DNA from: a virus
DNA: 30,868 nt
Reading direction: 5' to 3' (one strand)
Virus record (IMG/VR): IMGVR_UViG_3300037247_001856
Location: 1-30,868 of that record
The notes beneath the pieces are model-generated. The model worked only from the letters and a program-made list of their open reading frames with translations, made no database searches and was not told the origin of the DNA. The translations under genes and the position numbers were made by a program. Numbering within the stretch: position 1 is the stretch's first letter; each line of letters starts with the position of its first letter. Shown piece by piece: positions 4,155 through 27,124 of this stretch.

Positions 4155-4686
4155 CCTAATCCTACTTGCCGCGTTGATCCTAACGACGCCCGCACTCGCT
4201 GAAGAGCCGCTCGCGTACTCGGCAACTCCCGTCACCGGCGTCGTGATCGATGTCGATGGGAACGTGGTCTTGTGGCTCCGCTACAAGGGCGTAGTGGGCG
4301 AGTACAAGTTCGAGCTACGCGACACGCCACCGAGGGCACCTGATCCGCCTGATGACCCTGCCCCGCCCGAGACCGACCTTACCGCGTTTGTCGCGCGACT
4401 GACGGCCGACGTGGAGGCGTCCGACCACGAAAGCGTCGCCGATATCTTTCGAGCCATTGCCGACAGAATCGCCAGCGGAGACCTACGAGGAAGTACAGCC
4501 ATCGGGGCCGCAACTGCCGACTCGCTCCTCGGAGCGAAGGATAAGAAGGGCAACAGGCCGAACCGGGCTGCTTGGGCGCCGTGGTTCTCGGCGTTGATGA
4601 CGCACCTGTTCGTTGACGTCCAACTCGTGACGCAGACCCAGTGGGAGAAAGCATACCGCGAGATTGCGAAGGTGGTGAAGCCATGA
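4126..4686 (+). CDS. Secreted protein of unknown function upstream of the metalloprotease
   Basis: A signal peptide is evident: MRSLILLAALILTTPALA, preceded by seven residues if the ATG at 4126 is used. That start has AAAGGA at a good distance; the ATG at 4147 has none, so 4126 is preferred. The mature part has a short beta domain (VTGVVIDVDGNVVLWLRYKG), a Pro/Asp-rich linker (residues 69-84), and an Ala-rich helical domain with several Trp residues (AAWAPWFSAL, TQWEKAYREIAK). The stop overlaps the protease start as ATGA, so the two proteins are probably made together. A partner or periplasmic cofactor role for the protease is possible. Confidence 0.6.
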   Translation: MSNESCAMRSLILLAALILTTPALAEEPLAYSATPVTGVVIDVDGNVVLWLRYKGVVGEYKFELRDTPPRAPDPPDDPAPPETDLTAFVARLTADVEASDHESVADIFRAIADRIASGDLRGSTAIGAATADSLLGAKDKKGNRPNRAAWAPWFSALMTHLFVDVQLVTQTQWEKAYREIAKVVKP

Positions 4687-5588
4687 GTATGAACGCGAGC
4701 CAGATTATCGAGTTGCTCGACTCGACGGGCCACCTCGATTACCCGTACGGGAAATGGCAAGAGCGTCCCCCGGCGTCCACGGGCTTGGATGTTTCGGGGG
4801 TTCAGCGAGCCATCGCCAGCTACCAAGACTTCAACATGGCGGCGCTCGAGCCGCTTTGCCAGTGCCACCACTCCCGGCCACCACAAGCGAACGGCGAGAT
4901 TGGCCCCGCAACCCGCGAACTCTTCAAAAGCCGTATTTGCGGCTGCCCGGATTACGGCGAGAAGGTGTTGCCAGTCGTGGGCAAGGGTAGCTGGAAAGAG
5001 TGCCACGGAATTGGCAAATACCACGCGGCCACGGTGTACATCGACGAAAGCGGGATGCCGGGTTTTCTCAAGCCACTGTTTGATGAAATTTGGGGCCGAG
5101 TGGTCCGCTCATACGAGGACATCGGGCTTCGGTGGATTCGCACGACCAAACGGGACGCGAATATCGATTTCCGGTTCGTCAACCGCGGTGCGGGCTGGAT
5201 TGGGCTGGCCATCGTCGGGCAAGGTCAATCATGCGGTAGCCAGATTTGGTGCAAGTACGTTTCCGGATGGCACCCAAGCAACGTAGTACCCGCGTGGACC
5301 GAGTTGATTCAACATGAACTGGGACACAACTGCGGTTTGCAGCACAGCCGCGGCGGCAAGATGAACGCCAGCCTGATCATTGGCGGCGACCCCACGTGGC
5401 GAGGCGACCCGTCAGAATCGATCCTGAAGCGGCTATACGGAGGCGTGCCGATACCTGCACCTGAACCGCCCGTGCCGCCAGGACCGCCGCCGGGCGAGGA
5501 AGATCCGCGCACGTTCTCGGGCATCCTGACAAACAAACTGAAGGAGCAAGTCGACGTTATCATCCGCCCGCGGGAGACCCCCGACTAG
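4683..5588 (+). CDS. Matrixin-like zinc metalloprotease with peptidoglycan-binding-like prodomain
   Basis: The ATG at 4683 overlaps the previous stop (ATGA) and has GAAGGTGG upstream, so it is preferred over the longer frame from 4641. The zinc site HELGHNCGLQH (residues 211-221) and a following Met (M227) give the metzincin signature HExxHxxGxxH plus Met-turn. Residues 35-80 resemble a peptidoglycan-binding-like fold (VQRAIASYQ, GEIGPATRELF). It is followed at once by RICGCPD (84-90), close to the cysteine switch (PRCGVPD) that keeps matrix metalloproteases inactive. Residues 255-280 are Pro-rich. No signal peptide is seen. It might act on host envelope protein at lysis, or on virion proteins; the substrate is unknown. 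Confidence 0.82.
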   Translation: MSMNASQIIELLDSTGHLDYPYGKWQERPPASTGLDVSGVQRAIASYQDFNMAALEPLCQCHHSRPPQANGEIGPATRELFKSRICGCPDYGEKVLPVVGKGSWKECHGIGKYHAATVYIDESGMPGFLKPLFDEIWGRVVRSYEDIGLRWIRTTKRDANIDFRFVNRGAGWIGLAIVGQGQSCGSQIWCKYVSGWHPSNVVPAWTELIQHELGHNCGLQHSRGGKMNASLIIGGDPTWRGDPSESILKRLYGGVPIPAPEPPVPPGPPPGEEDPRTFSGILTNKLKEQVDVIIRPRETPD

Positions 5589-20430: not shown

Positions 20431-20928
20431 ATGGCACCGTTTACAGCCGGAAAATATGACGGGACACTGGCCGCTGGTGCTCTTGGTCAGACCGCCGACG
20501 GACTCCGAATCCAGCACGAAGTATCCAAGCAGCTGATCATTGGCGACAACTTCGGGGATGGCGTGCAGGATGCCGTCTACCGTGGCATGAATATGTTTGC
20601 TGGTTTCACGTTGCTGGAATTTGAGGCGGCCAAAGCTCAGGCGGCGTTCTGGCCGTACAGTACGACGTGGTTGGACATGGGTGTGATTGGCCGGCTCGAT
20701 GTTGCGACTGGGAGCAATCAAGCGGCTGTGGCCGCAGCACTCATTTTTACTGCCCTTGCGAACACGCCGGCGGCTTTGGACGGCACGCCGGCAAGCTTCA
20801 CGTTTCCGGCGGCCATCTTACGGGAGAACTTTCCTGTTGAAATACTGTTCGGGCCAGTGGCCCGCGAAGTGCCCCTCTCGATGAGGCTCTATCCAAACAG
20901 CTCCGGCGTTGTTGGAACCGTCACCTAG
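20431..20928 (+). CDS. Tail tube-like protein
   Basis: The 165-residue protein is Gly/Ala and Phe-rich and mainly beta: APFTAGKYDGTLAAGALGQTADGLRIQHEV, KQLIIGDNFGDGVQDAVYRGMNMF, SFTFPAAILRENFPVEILFGPVAREVPLSMRLYP. The pattern and length suit the major tube protein, or a close relative, found after the tail terminator and before the tape measure. Shine-Dalgarno is AGGAG, seven bases upstream. Confidence rests on order and general pattern. Confidence 0.62.
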   Translation: MAPFTAGKYDGTLAAGALGQTADGLRIQHEVSKQLIIGDNFGDGVQDAVYRGMNMFAGFTLLEFEAAKAQAAFWPYSTTWLDMGVIGRLDVATGSNQAAVAAALIFTALANTPAALDGTPASFTFPAAILRENFPVEILFGPVAREVPLSMRLYPNSSGVVGTVT

Positions 20929-20939
20929 CTACTTAGTCC

Positions 20940-22085
20940 ATGGCCAAAGCATCGCTCGAAATCGTGGTAATCGATTCCGGCGGGAATGTCCCGGCCGCGG
21001 CTACCGGTCCGGGTGGGGCCGTTGGAGGCGGGCCAGCGGTCGGCGGTGGACGACTTCGGCCAGGGCGTTCACGATCTAGCCGGCCGCCGACAGGTCAGTT
21101 TGTAGATGGGCCAGGTGGCGGTGGACCGTCAAGCCTTAGAGGTGTTGCGAGGGAGTTGAGTGCGGTACCGGGGCTCGGCAGGATTTCTGGCATTGCTGGC
21201 CGAGCGGAGCAGTTGAGCAATCTTGTGACTAGGTTTGCAGGGGTTGCGGGGCCGACTGAAGCCACCGGGACGGCTGGGACGGCCGCTGGGGCCCGGGCTG
21301 CTGGGGCTGCCGGGGCAAGTGCAGTTGCCGGCAAAGCTGGGGCTGCTGGCGCTGCCGGAGCTACTGGAGTTGCATCGCTTGCTGGACCGATTGGATTGGC
21401 TGCTGCTGCATTCATAGCAGGAACAGCCCTAGCTACAGTTGCCGTGAAAAAGTTTGCGGACAATGCCGAAGTGGAAGCCCGCCGGCTTAGTCGGTTCTCT
21501 GGCGAACTTGCTCTTGCAACTGCTCAGACTGACATCCGCCGGGAAATTGCCGATCTTCGACGGGCGAGAAGGATTGGGCCAGCAGCTGCTCGATTTGAAA
21601 CTCGCCGAAGTCAATTGGAGACTGAAGTTTTCGATTTGATTACGGAAATCAAGGTTGTGGTTTTTCAGTTATTTGAGCAGGCTCAGCCATTAGTGGATTT
21701 TGTGTCTAAACAGGTGTCGGATATAGCTGGCATCCTTGCATTCTTGAATAAGTTTGAAATTGTATCTGATCTGATTAGCAATTTCATCAAAAACGTCAAT
21801 CCGTTGATTTCTCTTGTGGTCGATATCTCAGGCTGGGTCCGATTCATTGCGGAATGGTTTGGGTTTGAAGGGCAAAAAGATGAGGATTTGCTAGATCCGT
21901 TTTTCGAGCAATTCGTCGCCATGGTTCAACAGGGAGCGGTGGTTGGTCCGGACGATGCCCGGGCGGCTGACATTAAAGTGGCACCAGAATTCCCAGCGGC
22001 GGTACCGCAGATTGCCGCCAATGAACTTACGTTTTCCCAGAAACTTAAACTGGCCATGGAGGGCAAGTTGCCGAAGGGACTTTAG
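20940..22085 (+). CDS. Short tape-measure-like tail protein
   Basis: The 381 residues comprise a Gly/Pro-rich start, an Ala/Gly repeat region (residues 105-145, collagen-like GAAG and GATG units), a hydrophobic helix (IGLAAAAFIAGTALATVAV, about 150-170), a charged coiled coil (EVEARRLSRFSGELALATAQTDIRREIADLRRARR, 175-235), and more hydrophobic helices to residue 310. This is the usual make-up of tape measure proteins, which fix tail length and may enter the host membrane. At 381 residues it is far shorter than most, so it would mean a short tail, or it may be another minor tail protein. Confidence 0.5.
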   Translation: MAKASLEIVVIDSGGNVPAAATGPGGAVGGGPAVGGGRLRPGRSRSSRPPTGQFVDGPGGGGPSSLRGVARELSAVPGLGRISGIAGRAEQLSNLVTRFAGVAGPTEATGTAGTAAGARAAGAAGASAVAGKAGAAGAAGATGVASLAGPIGLAAAAFIAGTALATVAVKKFADNAEVEARRLSRFSGELALATAQTDIRREIADLRRARRIGPAAARFETRRSQLETEVFDLITEIKVVVFQLFEQAQPLVDFVSKQVSDIAGILAFLNKFEIVSDLISNFIKNVNPLISLVVDISGWVRFIAEWFGFEGQKDEDLLDPFFEQFVAMVQQGAVVGPDDARAADIKVAPEFPAAVPQIAANELTFSQKLKLAMEGKLPKGL

Positions 22086-22101: not shown

Positions 22102-22326
22102 ATGGTCATTAAAAAAACAACACGGATAGACAGTCAGTTTCGGACAATCATAACTCACACAGGAACTGTTGAACGTAACAGTGATATGCGATTTCTACCG
22201 GGAAACTTAAGTCCGTTTCGTGTTTGTCCGGCAGGTTTTATTCGCAAGCAGATTTGGATTCAGAATATATTTGAGCATATTGTTTGGTTCAAGATTGTCG
22301 ATACTCAAATCATTTGCGACAATTGA
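22102..22326 (+). CDS. Possible small protein, 74 residues
   Basis: The ORF fills the 242-base gap between two tail genes, starting 17 bases after one and ending one base before the next ATG. A weak AGGTAAG lies about ten bases upstream. The product has a basic start (MVIKKTTRIDSQFR) and an aromatic, hydrophobic end (IWIQNIFEHIVWFKIVDTQIICDN). The DNA is more A+T-rich than on either side. The neat fit supports a gene; the composition and absence of any recognised pattern argue for caution. Confidence 0.4.
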   Translation: MVIKKTTRIDSQFRTIITHTGTVERNSDMRFLPGNLSPFRVCPAGFIRKQIWIQNIFEHIVWFKIVDTQIICDN

Positions 22327-22327
22327 A

Positions 22328-24085
22328 ATGACCATCGCAGGCATCCAGCCCGGCAACCTCTTGAAATACAACGGTTTCGAGTTTGACGGTGCGTCCACGA
22401 TCAACGCTGCTGTCAGATTCATTCGCGACGATGCGGACAGAGTGGTCGTTTATCAGGAAACCACAATCACGGCTAAGGCCATCGTTGTGCCCAATAGCGG
22501 CAACGCTTCTACCGACAAAGCCATGCAGGAAATCCGCCGAAAACTTGGAGCGGACGGTGGTATCTTGACTTTCAAAGATAAGGGATTTGGCCAAGATTTC
22601 GTCGTCAACAAGGGCAAGATCAAAGACGTAAAGTTTGGACCAAAACCGAAAATTCTATCCTGGAAACCGATCGGTGATACGCTGGCCGCAGAAATCGAAT
22701 GGCAAGTTGTGACGCGATTTCCGGTATGTGAGAACGCGAAATTCAAGGACGTGCTTGCTTTGAACTATGACCATACAGTCGTGATTGACGACAAAAGTAA
22801 TTCCACGCGAACCGTCACTGGTTACATCGAAATCGCACAGACGCGACGGGTCGGCCAGCAGTCGCTCACGCAGATTGCCGACAGTTTTCGCGGTCAGATT
22901 CGCGTTGTGCCACTGCCGGGGTTCAAGCGAACACAGAGCTGGAAAACGTCTCTCGACAAGTCGCGAGTTGACTTTTCGATTGTTGATGAGCAGATTAATA
23001 GCCGGAACCCATGGCCGCAATTTGTGACGGACATTTCCGCACGGCATGACGTAGCGATGTCGCGGTCGTCTGGATTTCAAAGCAGCCTGAACACACTCTC
23101 GGCCAACATTGAACTGATTCCGGGAAAGCCTGGGACCCTCGCCTACCTGATTTTTTTGCAGTTGATTCAAACTCGCATCTTGACGGCAAGGGGCAGTAGT
23201 AATCAGGTTGTCATGCTACAAAACGTAAACATCAGCGAAGACATCTTTGGCCGATCGTCGCGGTTCTCCGTGAGCTACCGCGTGTTGCACTGTTTGAAAG
23301 ATTTCATGCAGCGAACTGGACTCTGGCAACCCCTTGGTACGAACTGGCAGCAATGGGCAACGTCAGTTTCGCCGATGTTCAATAATCGCGGCAACGCTGG
23401 ACTAGCAGCCTCGGCTAGCCACGATGCGATTATCAGTCTATGCCTGCCCGGATCGACTGGCGGAGTGAATATCGATTCTCCATTACGAACGGAAAGGGAT
23501 GTGGCGAATTCCCTTCCGTCACTTCAGAACCTCCGGCCGCCGGCAGCACGAAGTTGGCTGGCCTATGAGAATATAATCCAGCTTTTTGCAGATCGGCCGA
23601 CAGTCCGGCAGTCGCCCATCCAATCGCCCGCCGATCAACTGGAGGAACAGACGGCATTGGGGACCAGCGATTTCAGTTACCCGGAGCAGTCCTCCGGCGT
23701 GAAAGAGGATATTATTCAGGAGGGCGGACAACCGACGTATTCCGCGTGGCTGATCGGCCATGCGGCCAGGGTTGGGTACAAGATCGTACAGCCGCGACTG
23801 AAGAAAATCGGCAAGGCAGCGGTTCGGGAAGTGAAAAATATCTTCACCGAAGGCTCGATAGCCAATATGTTTGGCCAGCCGGTCTTTGGTGCCTCTTGGA
23901 AAATCGGGTATATTTTAGCGGGTTCGCCGGGCAAGGTTCCGCCGGAGGACAACTTGAAAGAGTGTGTTGACGGCGGAAAGGGAACGGCGGAGAAGCCCGG
24001 CAAGACTGGAGAGGCTGCCGGAAGTCTCTCTGGCGGTGCCGGAGCCGGGGCTGGCAGCGGATTCAATGAAGTAGGGATACAGTAG
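22328..24085 (+). CDS. Baseplate or distal-tail structural protein
   Basis: I start at the ATG at 22328; the frame extends back to 22220 but into the neighbouring ORF. The 585-residue protein begins IAGIQPGNLLKYNGFEFDGASTINAAVRFIRDDADRVVVYQ and has repeated beta strands, as in distal-tail and baseplate hub proteins. Residues 360-410 are aromatic (GLWQPLGTNWQQWATSV), and residues 545-585 a Gly/Ala/Ser tail. Its place right after the tape-measure-like gene fits a tail-tip role. No enzymatic motif is visible. Confidence 0.52.
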   Translation: MTIAGIQPGNLLKYNGFEFDGASTINAAVRFIRDDADRVVVYQETTITAKAIVVPNSGNASTDKAMQEIRRKLGADGGILTFKDKGFGQDFVVNKGKIKDVKFGPKPKILSWKPIGDTLAAEIEWQVVTRFPVCENAKFKDVLALNYDHTVVIDDKSNSTRTVTGYIEIAQTRRVGQQSLTQIADSFRGQIRVVPLPGFKRTQSWKTSLDKSRVDFSIVDEQINSRNPWPQFVTDISARHDVAMSRSSGFQSSLNTLSANIELIPGKPGTLAYLIFLQLIQTRILTARGSSNQVVMLQNVNISEDIFGRSSRFSVSYRVLHCLKDFMQRTGLWQPLGTNWQQWATSVSPMFNNRGNAGLAASASHDAIISLCLPGSTGGVNIDSPLRTERDVANSLPSLQNLRPPAARSWLAYENIIQLFADRPTVRQSPIQSPADQLEEQTALGTSDFSYPEQSSGVKEDIIQEGGQPTYSAWLIGHAARVGYKIVQPRLKKIGKAAVREVKNIFTEGSIANMFGQPVFGASWKIGYILAGSPGKVPPEDNLKECVDGGKGTAEKPGKTGEAAGSLSGGAGAGAGSGFNEVGIQ

Positions 24086-24120
24086 CGGATTTTATCACTG
24101 CCAATTGAAAGGAAATGACG

Positions 24121-24486
24121 ATGGCGAAAAAAGCGAAGCGGAAAAGGGCGGGCGGAAAGAAAGCGGCAACGAAGCCAGCCGAATCAACTGACGGAGTGCC
24201 AGTCTTCTCAGATGGCCGACTGAAGTTTTGTGTCGAGGGCGGTCAATCAGACGGCAAGAGTTTTCGGGTCGACATGCTCGACGTGCAAATAGTGTCCGAC
24301 GAATTGGCGTTAAAGCACCGACTCGGTGACCGAAAGGGAAAGCCAAGCCGTGAATTTCTCGCCGACTTGGCCGGTGAATTCGACAGCCTGATTGGCAATG
24401 ACATCAAGTGTACGCCCAGTCTGGCTTACTGGATATGGCACGCTGTCTGTAGCAGGATGGAAGAGTTGCAAAAAAAAACGAACTAG
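24121..24486 (+). CDS. Tail assembly chaperone-like protein, short form
   Basis: I choose the ATG at 24121, with AAAGG at eight bases, over 24115. The 121-residue protein has a Lys/Ala-rich start (AKKAKRKRAGGKKAATK), a beta strand region (LKFCVEGGQSDGKSFRVDMLDVQIV), and a helical part (REFLADLAGEFDSLIG, SLAYWIWHAVCSRMEELQKK). It ends at TAG a few bases after a run of nine adenines. Phages use two-form chaperones of this size, one made by frameshift, to load the tape measure. The gene here lies after, not before, the tape-measure-like gene, so the role is not certain. Confidence 0.65.
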   Translation: MAKKAKRKRAGGKKAATKPAESTDGVPVFSDGRLKFCVEGGQSDGKSFRVDMLDVQIVSDELALKHRLGDRKGKPSREFLADLAGEFDSLIGNDIKCTPSLAYWIWHAVCSRMEELQKKTN

Positions 24487-24731
24487 CCGCTGACATTTCG
24501 CGTTGTTACGGATTCGACGCGACGAAACTTGACCGAGAAACGCTGGCTGGGTTTGCGGCCAACATGCCGAGAATGAAAGCACAGGCAGCACTGGAAGAGG
24601 GCAGCTATGATCCCGCAGATGATCAATCCGTGTATCGATTGGTGCTTGCGGCCACTGGGAGCATCCAGGCAGCGAAACGTGCCGAAACAGAATCACTGAA
24701 AGTTCGCGTGAAACAGTCAGAAACGAAGTGA
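24121..24731 (+). CDS. Predicted frameshift fusion product, 203 residues
   Basis: Zero-frame codons to 24477 (119 residues), then a -1 shift, add 84 residues beginning NELAADISRCYGFDATKL and ending VKQSETK. The extension has no start codon near its beginning; its first ATG (24564) leaves only 55 codons, with no good Shine-Dalgarno. The sequence is coding-like: charged, helical (RETLAGFAANMPRMKAQAALEEG, QAAKRAETESLKVRVKQ) and uninterrupted. The stop TGA is followed six bases on by the portal ATG. This matches the G/GT layout of lambda-like tail chaperones, though such extensions are also found in other phage protein pairs. Confidence 0.7.
24471..24477 (+). promoter_or_regulatory. A AAA AAA -1 ribosomal frameshift site
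   Basis: Within the adenine run 24470-24478, A AAA AAA sits in the correct phase (CAA AAA AAA ACG) for -1 slippage. Only 7 bases separate it from the zero-frame stop (TAG, 24484-24486). The -1 frame is then open for 84 codons to a TGA at 24729-24731. A possible stimulatory stem, TCGCGT (24498-24503) with ACGCGA (24517-24522), lies about 20 bases downstream, further than the usual 5-9 bases. Confidence 0.75.
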
Positions 24732-24736
24732 AAGCT

Positions 24737-27124
24737 ATGAACCTATTCGCCAGAGCCGCGACGTGGTTGAAGAATAGAGACTGGTTACTCGGAACGCCGA
24801 AGACTGCGGACTACAAAGCGATTCCGCACAATATGTTCCAGCAGCCTCGCGACCTGCCGGTCTTCACGTTTCACACGATCCACGCAATGCTCATGGACCC
24901 AACGGTCCGGCTGGGCCTTGCTATGCGAATGGCCCCGCTGACTTCGGCCGAATTCGCTTTCAAGCAAGGGACGGACGAACGCGGCCAAGCGAAATGGGTT
25001 CCCGGTGTTCAAGCGAAGAAACCGGAGGTGGCTGAATTTGTTCTCCGGCAACTTCAAAGGATCTGGCAACACGATCTGCCTAAGATTCTCTCTGCTCAGA
25101 TTTGGGGCTGGGCTGCCGGCGAAGTTGTCTTGCGATTGACGCCGGCCGGCATGGTCGAATTCGATACGATCCTGCACAGACACGCGAGGGACGTTCGGCC
25201 ACTGCTTGGGAATGGCGAAGTGAAGGCGGTTCGGTTTCTTCGGGTTCGCGGGACGTCCGGGAATGTTGAATTGAGATTCCCAAAAAGCTACTGGCACGTT
25301 TTCCGGGACGATGAGGGATCGGCCCATAATATGCCGGTTTTGCATGGAGCGTATTCGCCGTGGGCGGATAAGTGGCTGAACGGTGGGGCATTAGACGTGC
25401 GGCGGTTGTTTATGCACATGCACGCGTATGGAGGAAATGACCTTACGTATCCGCCAGGCACAACAGACGACGGCGAAGGGAACCCAATTCCTAACCGCGA
25501 TATTGCCCGTCAGATTGTGGAGCAACTCAAGGCTGGCGGGTCAACAACGCGGCCGGCACAGTTTGAACCGAATACCGGTAAGCCGATGTGGGAACTTACC
25601 CGGGCAACCGTTCCCGCAAACCCAACCCACATTCTCGAATACCCAAAGGATCTTGATGTTGAGATTCTTCGCGGCATGGAAATCCCGGATGACGTTTTGA
25701 CTTCGGAAGGGACTGGGGCGTGGCAAGGCAAGCAGGTACCCATGCAGGCGTTTTTCTCTGGGCTGAATACATGGTTGACGGTGGTCGTGCGGGTGACGGT
25801 CAAACAGATTATTGAGCCGTTGGTGTTGTTGAACTGGGGCAAGCCTGAAGAGTTTGAAGTGATGACGAAGCCGCTGGACGTTCAGGCGATGGAAATCAAC
25901 CAGAGGAATCAGCCGGAGGGGGCCGGGCAGGGCGGACAGCCGGGTCAGCCCGGGCAACCGCAGCCGGGGGCGGTGTTTGGCCAGCCGGGCCAACAACCGG
26001 GCCAGCCCGTTCGGCCGGGTCAGCCCGGGAATGGGCAGGGGCAACCGGGACAACCGGGCGTGCCGGCACCCAGAAGGCGATTCGGCCTCGATCCAATGGA
26101 CCCGGTTCAAGCAGTCGGCGAGGGCGTTCTGTCGGCCGGCGAACTGGTAACGGCGGCTAAGGAAGCAATGAGGATAAGATTAGCCCGCCCTTTTGACGAA
26201 TCGAAAATTAGTCGCGAGGGGAAAGGCACAGGCGAGGGCGGGCAATTCGCCGAGCAAGCGGGGGCAGACGTTGCAACTGAAAAGAAAGTATCAGATCGTG
26301 TATCGGCAACCATTAAAGACAAACAACTGACGCTCGGGAGCGGCGAATCCCTCCCGGGCCACTTACAAGGCTTGCGGATTCCGCCGGCGTGGCGAGATAT
26401 AACCATTTCCCTTGACCCCAATGCCGCACTTATTGCCACTGGTTTTGACGCGAAGGGTCGCAAGCAAAGCGTTTACTCGGCTGCTCACAGTCAAAGTCGA
26501 TCTGCGATGAAGTTTTCCAGGATTACGGAATTACGGCAAAAGTTCTCAGCGATTCAGGAACAAAATAGAGCGAACATCGAAAGCGAGAGCCCCTTGGTTC
26601 GCGATGCTGCTTCCGTTTCATCGCTCATTATGGCGACGGGACTCCGGCCGGGCAGCACGCGAGATACGAAAGCAGAAACACAAGCCTTCGGGGCAACGAC
26701 ACTAGAGGGTAGGCACGTTGTCGTATCTGGTACAAATGTGCGATTGAAGTTTACTGGAAAAAAGGGCGTACCTATTGACATACCAGTCAACAACCCGATG
26801 GTCGCTGCTTTGCTTCGCGAACGAAAAGAGTCCGCCGGCGATAGCGGCCGACTCTTTAATGTGAGCGATTCGCAATTAAGGGGATATGCAAAAACACTAG
26901 ATGGTGGATCATTCAAGCCAAAAGATTTTCGCACCCATAAGGGAACGAGTCTCGCTGCCAATCTCGTCAGTCGAGGCAGTGTCCCTAAATCAGAAAAGGA
27001 ATACAAGAGTCGAGTGCGAGAAGTCGCGAAGTCCGTGGCAGCGGCCCTCGGAAATACGCCGGCTGTTGCTTTGCAATCTTACATCGATCCGACAGTTTTC
27101 TCGAAGTGGAGACCAGCAGCATGA
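24737..27124 (+). CDS. Portal protein fused to type IB DNA topoisomerase
   Basis: A single 795-residue frame from the ATG at 24737 (a GTG at 24728 is possible). Residues 1-390 read as a Mu gp29/DUF935-like portal (LPVFTFHTIHAMLMDPTVRLGL, ILSAQIWGWAAGEVVLRL), the ring through which DNA enters and leaves the head. Residues 391-446 are a Gly/Gln/Pro collagen-like linker, then FDESKIS...GGQFAE (486-506). Residues 525-795 are a bacterial type IB topoisomerase: GLRIPPAWRDI, LRPGS (R637), FTGKKG (K675), KDFRTHKGT (R732), LGNTPAVALQSY (N773, nucleophile Y782). All five active-site residues align with the known family. The next gene starts within its stop codon. The fusion would put the topoisomerase at the portal vertex. 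Confidence 0.87.
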   Translation: MNLFARAATWLKNRDWLLGTPKTADYKAIPHNMFQQPRDLPVFTFHTIHAMLMDPTVRLGLAMRMAPLTSAEFAFKQGTDERGQAKWVPGVQAKKPEVAEFVLRQLQRIWQHDLPKILSAQIWGWAAGEVVLRLTPAGMVEFDTILHRHARDVRPLLGNGEVKAVRFLRVRGTSGNVELRFPKSYWHVFRDDEGSAHNMPVLHGAYSPWADKWLNGGALDVRRLFMHMHAYGGNDLTYPPGTTDDGEGNPIPNRDIARQIVEQLKAGGSTTRPAQFEPNTGKPMWELTRATVPANPTHILEYPKDLDVEILRGMEIPDDVLTSEGTGAWQGKQVPMQAFFSGLNTWLTVVVRVTVKQIIEPLVLLNWGKPEEFEVMTKPLDVQAMEINQRNQPEGAGQGGQPGQPGQPQPGAVFGQPGQQPGQPVRPGQPGNGQGQPGQPGVPAPRRRFGLDPMDPVQAVGEGVLSAGELVTAAKEAMRIRLARPFDESKISREGKGTGEGGQFAEQAGADVATEKKVSDRVSATIKDKQLTLGSGESLPGHLQGLRIPPAWRDITISLDPNAALIATGFDAKGRKQSVYSAAHSQSRSAMKFSRITELRQKFSAIQEQNRANIESESPLVRDAASVSSLIMATGLRPGSTRDTKAETQAFGATTLEGRHVVVSGTNVRLKFTGKKGVPIDIPVNNPMVAALLRERKESAGDSGRLFNVSDSQLRGYAKTLDGGSFKPKDFRTHKGTSLAANLVSRGSVPKSEKEYKSRVREVAKSVAAALGNTPAVALQSYIDPTVFSKWRPAA

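Follow-up and report, generated by a model that had tools for sequence, protein, structure and literature searches.

A conserved two-frame gene beside the portal gene of an uncultured virus family is a probable displaced tail assembly chaperone

Does a short gene that changes frame at a run of adenines directly upstream of a portal gene yield two proteins and, if so, what are these proteins and at which step of expression is the frame changed? The gene occupies positions 24115–24731 of the window, by which is meant the whole 30,868-base record of an uncultured virus that was analyzed here; the gene and the neighbors located below lie on the + strand. The window also encodes a large terminase, a lambda-D-like head decoration protein, a Mu gp36-like protein, a neck protein, a Mu-type portal, and a MuF-like protein. 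The hosts of this virus family are probably planctomycete bacteria, given that related portals were found on two planctomycete MAG contigs. Elsewhere in the window are a D5-like primase-helicase with an RFX-like DNA-binding domain (1–1269) and a reprolysin-like metallopeptidase (4641–5588).

The zero-frame ORF (24115–24486) encodes an N domain (HMM match 24220–24480, E = 1.5e-30, the window being one of the model's own rows) and would give a short product of 123 aa, ending in ...MEELQKKTN two codons past the slip site. There, a run of nine adenines (A9, 24470–24478) is read in the zero frame as CAA AAA AAA ACG AAC TAG, with the heptamer A AAA AAA in phase at 24471–24477 and the stop codon TAG at 24484–24486. 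The −1 frame is open from 24477 for 84 codons to a TGA at 24729–24731, and its translation begins KK NELAADISRCYGFD...; this extension aligns with in-frame homologues and constitutes a C domain (HMM match 24471–24725, the window again being one of the model's own rows), so that the predicted full product comprising both domains is 205 aa long. The phase of the heptamer, the closeness of the zero-frame stop, and the span of the open −1 frame up to the portal start had all been described in an earlier note on this DNA, and each is borne out by the sequence. That note had also stated that the extension lacks an initiating codon, which is incorrect, as ATG codons occur at 24564 and 24573, a GTG at 24630, and others later, with none in approximately the first 29 codons. 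The first of these ATGs nevertheless lies deep inside the conserved domain, and independent initiation of the extension was rejected because internal codons alone are available and their use would lose the conserved head of the C domain. The end of the extension touches the start of the portal gene (GTG 24728 or ATG 24737), through which translation of the two genes could be coupled.

Neither the run nor the open frame is striking by itself. An A9 run was present in 42 of 100 shuffles of the window and was therefore dropped as evidence in its own right, and an 84-codon extension was open in 81 of 2,000 shuffles; the significance of the combination rests on its conservation among relatives. These relatives were found with portals as bait, the gene itself being too variable for searching: a search with the joined protein recovered no relative, and one alignment was too diverse to serve as a query. 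Sixteen rows are of the frameshift type, namely the window, L052, L047, L054, L055, L046, L042, L043, L048, L049, L050, L056, L065, L067, L057, and L124; L049 and L050 are near-identical, leaving 15 IMG/VR rows besides the window, or 14 if that pair is counted once. All 16 carry both domains in two frames, always with a −1 change and an in-phase A AAA AA(A/C), while a further 12 relatives encode both domains in one uninterrupted ORF. Wherever a virus contig holds enough upstream sequence, the two domains are encoded directly before the portal. The profiles were built partly from counted rows, whose E-values are accordingly not independent; L025–L041, L048–L056, L065, L067, and L124 were added later and are independent of the profiles. 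The N domain of L057 was missed by its profile, and the upstream frame and slip site of this row were read from the sequence. Another relative has two tandem copies of the N domain within the zero-frame ORF (L002:3180–3679, two HMM matches). Outside these virus contigs, a first genome scan returned no locus and a second returned two planctomycete MAG loci, one of which (L103) has no such gene upstream of its portal, while the other (L104) starts too near the portal to tell; a tblastn search of isolated-phage records gave no match for either gene.

This distribution bears directly on whether the two frames are an artefact. Homopolymers are error-prone and one clade does have a single ORF, as would be expected if a sequencing or assembly error, or a point deletion that split a pseudogene, had broken one simple frame in the window. 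The same layout, however, recurs across a large number of independent assemblies and samples, to portal identities as low as approximately 31%; the run lengths differ while the shift stays constant, and residues conserved in the extension are retained. The relatives thus rule this explanation out, and what probability it retains is negligible. Both checks that the earlier note had proposed against its own reading were carried out: an A-run of six to nine residues and an open −1 frame are present in every frameshift-type relative, and the arrangement as one simple frame is confined to one clade nested among two-frame relatives. It is also conceivable that A9 and A10 genomes toggle between the short and the long product by replicative phase variation, in keeping with the frequent mutation of long homopolymers, but no A10 appeared in any of the 13 rows with A9, nor in duplicates of these rows from other samples, which makes such toggling very improbable. 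At the level of sequence, then, the gene has two domains, a constant −1 shift, an A-run held in phase, and two frames that are both conserved as protein.

On the portal tree, the one-ORF rows form a single clade (support 100/98) with two-frame rows around it, and L057, an outgroup at approximately 31% portal identity whose long branch makes its placement uncertain, is also two-framed. Because the one-ORF rows form one clade amid two-frame rows, frameshifting appears, on grounds of parsimony, to be ancestral and to have been lost once. No conserved slip site was found when the fused clade was searched for one, including a dnaX-like reverse shift; lacking a conserved site at which to make it, these viruses may be able to dispense with the short product or may meet the need for it otherwise.

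The genes around the locus point to a tail function. Upstream of the frameshift gene lies a 621-aa conserved protein (22220–24085) that is present in 29 of 29 relatives, gave no match in family searches, and is probably a distal tail protein. It is preceded by a short tape-measure-like protein of 381 aa (20940–22085; PHROG tape measure, E = 8.7e-7) and by a tube-like gene with a 165-aa product (20431–20928), which is kept in 26 of 29 relatives and identified by its position and the look of its sequence. The AlphaFold prediction for the tube-like protein was poor (pLDDT 42), and its identity consequently stays an inferred one. The earlier note's placement of the gene after a tape-measure-like gene and beside the portal is confirmed, and the block of tube, tape measure, 621-aa protein, frameshift gene, and portal recurs in relatives. 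The tube-like and tape-measure-like genes are separated by a gap of approximately 11 nt with no chaperone gene in it, and relatives too carry an adjacent long ORF; this spacing, within a block that recurs, leaves the usual place of a chaperone gene empty. The portal itself (24728–27124) is of the Mu type and bears a C-terminal topoisomerase IB domain (Portal_Mu, E = 3.8e-8; Topoisom_I, E = 7.4e-20). In several relatives the portal is a plain one of 440–505 aa, and in others its C-terminal domain is different, among them extensions at L002:3953–6949, L021:2938–6579, and L022:2914–4797 with varied effector-like domains (2′-5′ RNA ligase-like plus ADP-ribosyltransferase, Zeta-toxin-like, and LPD3); these fit a published account of polyvalent proteins joined to portals (PMC5512222).

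The gene is probably a tail assembly chaperone with two products, like G/GT or E/E+E′, and invites comparison with both systems. The tail-gene frameshift is reported as conserved in long-tailed phages (Xu et al., 2004, as cited in PMC5009743), and the roles and ratio of lambda G and GT are described (PMC5009743). Lambda gpG/gpGT shares with the window gene its layout, the direction of the shift, and an extension that ends at the next gene; here, however, the gene order is another one, sequence similarity is undetectable, and a length-conserved A9 without a hairpin stands at the slip site. P2 gpE/gpE+E′ is alike in its short product and −1 extended product, in its tail gene context, and, less certainly, in a D-(I/V)-A-x-x-F motif soon past the slip site (a GpE similarity below cut-off). 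It differs in its slip site, which is an A-run here, and in its position between the tube and tape-measure genes, whereas the window gene lies between the tape measure and the portal and so outside the interval in which G/GT genes are found. Mu-like Pseudomonas siphophages (the D3112 group and PaMx73), for which a −1 site T TTT TTC has been proposed in the tail genes (PMC4378225), resemble the window in their Mu-type head genes and in the prediction of a frameshift in a tail chaperone, but have a different slip site.

Similarity searches give a fainter signal. The Pfam family Phage_P2_GpE (PF06528), whose model spans the extension domain of P2's tail chaperone, matches weakly in 5 of 26 members just after the slip point, the best match (8.8e-4) scoring 19.2 bits against a gathering cut-off of 23. 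Aligned by hhalign with eleven P2-type E′ sequences, the same motif was recovered over 18 columns at P = 0.014 (P = 0.65 for an unrelated control), with a probability of only 3%. No family model exceeded its cut-off and no significant relative emerged from profile and family searches. An in-frame homologue, L023, was modeled by AlphaFold with a mean pLDDT of 93.8 as two short N-terminal strands followed by helices, one of which (residues 53–84) spans the slip position; Foldseek comparison of this model with the PDB and BFVD yielded no significant fold match, one BFVD chaperone appearing at E = 1.4.

That these searches matched no chaperone significantly in sequence or in fold, and that the gene directly precedes the portal in virus contigs holding upstream sequence, would suit a different two-product protein acting in the head or in packaging, such as a small terminase subunit, a scaffold, or a portal cofactor, whose role would explain its neighbor. 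Set against this are the GpE-like motif at the expected place, the empty chaperone slot, and the conserved block of tail genes, and a head or packaging role is regarded as unlikely while keeping appreciable weight. The two-product anatomy, the weak P2 GpE motif, and the empty slot instead point to a displaced tail assembly chaperone. The gene is not filed as a member of the GpE family, and its sequence ties it at most weakly to any known family of chaperones. The resemblance to tail chaperones noticed in the earlier note thus stands as regards layout, now joined by the empty slot and the weak motif, and falls short of assignment to a family model. With moderate confidence, and by analogy, the gene is expected to work like a G/GT chaperone, the function and the ratio of the products both being inferred. 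Most expression would then give the short N-domain protein, and a minority would shift to the −1 frame at A9 to give the N plus C domains; as in lambda, the N domain would coat the tape measure and the C domain would recruit tube subunits.

How the frame is changed is less easily settled, and the run itself provides most of the evidence. It is exactly A9 in 13 of 16 rows, the exceptions being one each of A8, A7, and A6. The A9 runs occur in two phases, CAA AAA AAA ACG or NTA AAA AAA AAY, yet their length stays at nine, and the phase types interchange on the portal tree, where the sisters L056 and L067 differ. The slip-site Lys is never encoded by AAG, although neighboring portals prefer it (AAG:AAA, 156:90). 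An in-phase heptamer of the form X XXY YYZ, the hallmark of −1 ribosomal frameshifting, is present in the window, which has neither a strong downstream structure nor a conserved upstream Shine-Dalgarno-like element to stimulate it. Downstream folding is ordinary in the A8–A9 rows (mean z −0.35, minimum −1.74; window z about −1), and a Shine-Dalgarno-like element upstream (AGGA) is not conserved. Such a stimulator is not strictly needed at every known −1 frameshift site. Strong structures were found in the A6 and A7 relatives, where they start 7–9 nt past the heptamer: folding z is −6.1 in the A6 row L042 (−4.1 over 82 nt) and −2.9 in the A7 row L057 (−3.1 in the second calculation). The L042 structure, a very stable branched hairpin of −35.8 kcal/mol at L042:3119–3200 (z −4.1), begins 9 nt past A AAA AAC. 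A rank test of A8–A9 against A6/A7 folding gave p = 0.0095, a value that derives from two short-run lineages only and from a contrast noticed before testing, and the rank correlation of structure with run length over all rows was not significant (p = 0.22).

If two products are made, −1 programmed ribosomal frameshifting of the classic kind, at A AAA AAA, could operate in all lineages, the long A-run serving as an extended slippery site. It would account for the in-phase heptamer of every row and for the A6 (A AAA AAC) and A7 members, whose runs fall below the length at which polymerase usually slips and which have strong downstream structures. It accords less well with the A8–A9 members, which lack both a downstream structure and a conserved Shine-Dalgarno-like element, with the two extra A's that are kept in both phase types and that a heptamer does not need, and with the complete avoidance of A AAA AAG; its chances are put a little short of even. 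Alternatively, and again given two products, RNA polymerase slippage at A8–A9 would produce a mixed pool of mRNAs in which the long product is encoded by transcripts that have gained an A. The transcriptional hallmark, a length-conserved run of about nine A's, is found in 13 of 16 rows; a length of nine is kept while the run moves one base relative to the frame, the slip-site Lys is AAA only, there is no hairpin, and 9-A and, in some bacteria, 8-A runs are reported to be so used, a conserved A9 being treated as indicative of slippage during transcription (PMC1088944). In Thermus dnaX and in IS elements (PMC1088944), too, the frame changes at a conserved uninterrupted A8–A9, though the gene is a different one and polymerase slippage, their mechanism, is only a candidate here. 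The A6 and A7 members must nevertheless use another mechanism, and the sampled sequences are few and phylogenetically linked, so this reading too is given somewhat less than an even chance.

The preferred account combines elements of both. In the A8–A9 lineages, including the window, the run itself would drive the shift without a stimulating hairpin, by one of two routes: either RNA polymerase adds one A, or the unaided ribosome slips. In the A6 and A7 lineages, downstream RNA structure would stimulate ordinary −1 ribosomal frameshifting, which is the likely mechanism in L042 and L057 to judge from their predicted folds. Homologues of dnaX reportedly provide precedent for both slippage mechanisms (Larsen et al., 2000, as cited in PMC3711429). 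For the window, polymerase slippage and unaided ribosomal slippage are rated about equal, because bare heptamers reportedly exceed an E. coli background of about 0.055% by a factor of only 2–10 (PMC4066793), and a conserved A9 is a mark of transcriptional slippage (PMC1088944). The programmed frameshift of the earlier note is therefore retained as a conserved −1 change of frame, but the ribosome is only one candidate for the level at which it occurs, the A8–A9 lineages having no downstream structure and the constancy of nine A's across phases suiting RNA polymerase slippage at least equally. Taken whole, the explanation as a two-product chaperone with a run-driven shift in A8–A9 lineages and a structure-stimulated one in A6/A7 lineages is considered probable.

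Among the recoding genes of phages, tail chaperones with two products rank with the most widely conserved; those in the cited literature depend on the ribosome, and genes of the P2 and lambda types adjoin the tape measure. This family would present a mixture, in which the gene is displaced, most lineages have a hairpin-less A9, short-run lineages have hairpins, and one clade is fused only. More specifically, and only tentatively, it may have a tail chaperone gene that has moved beside the portal and is recoded for the most part by polymerase slippage at a length-conserved A9, its side lineages being hairpin-ribosomal or fused. The family would thus amount to a natural experiment on whether the short product is needed and on the ease with which recoding passes from transcription to translation or back.
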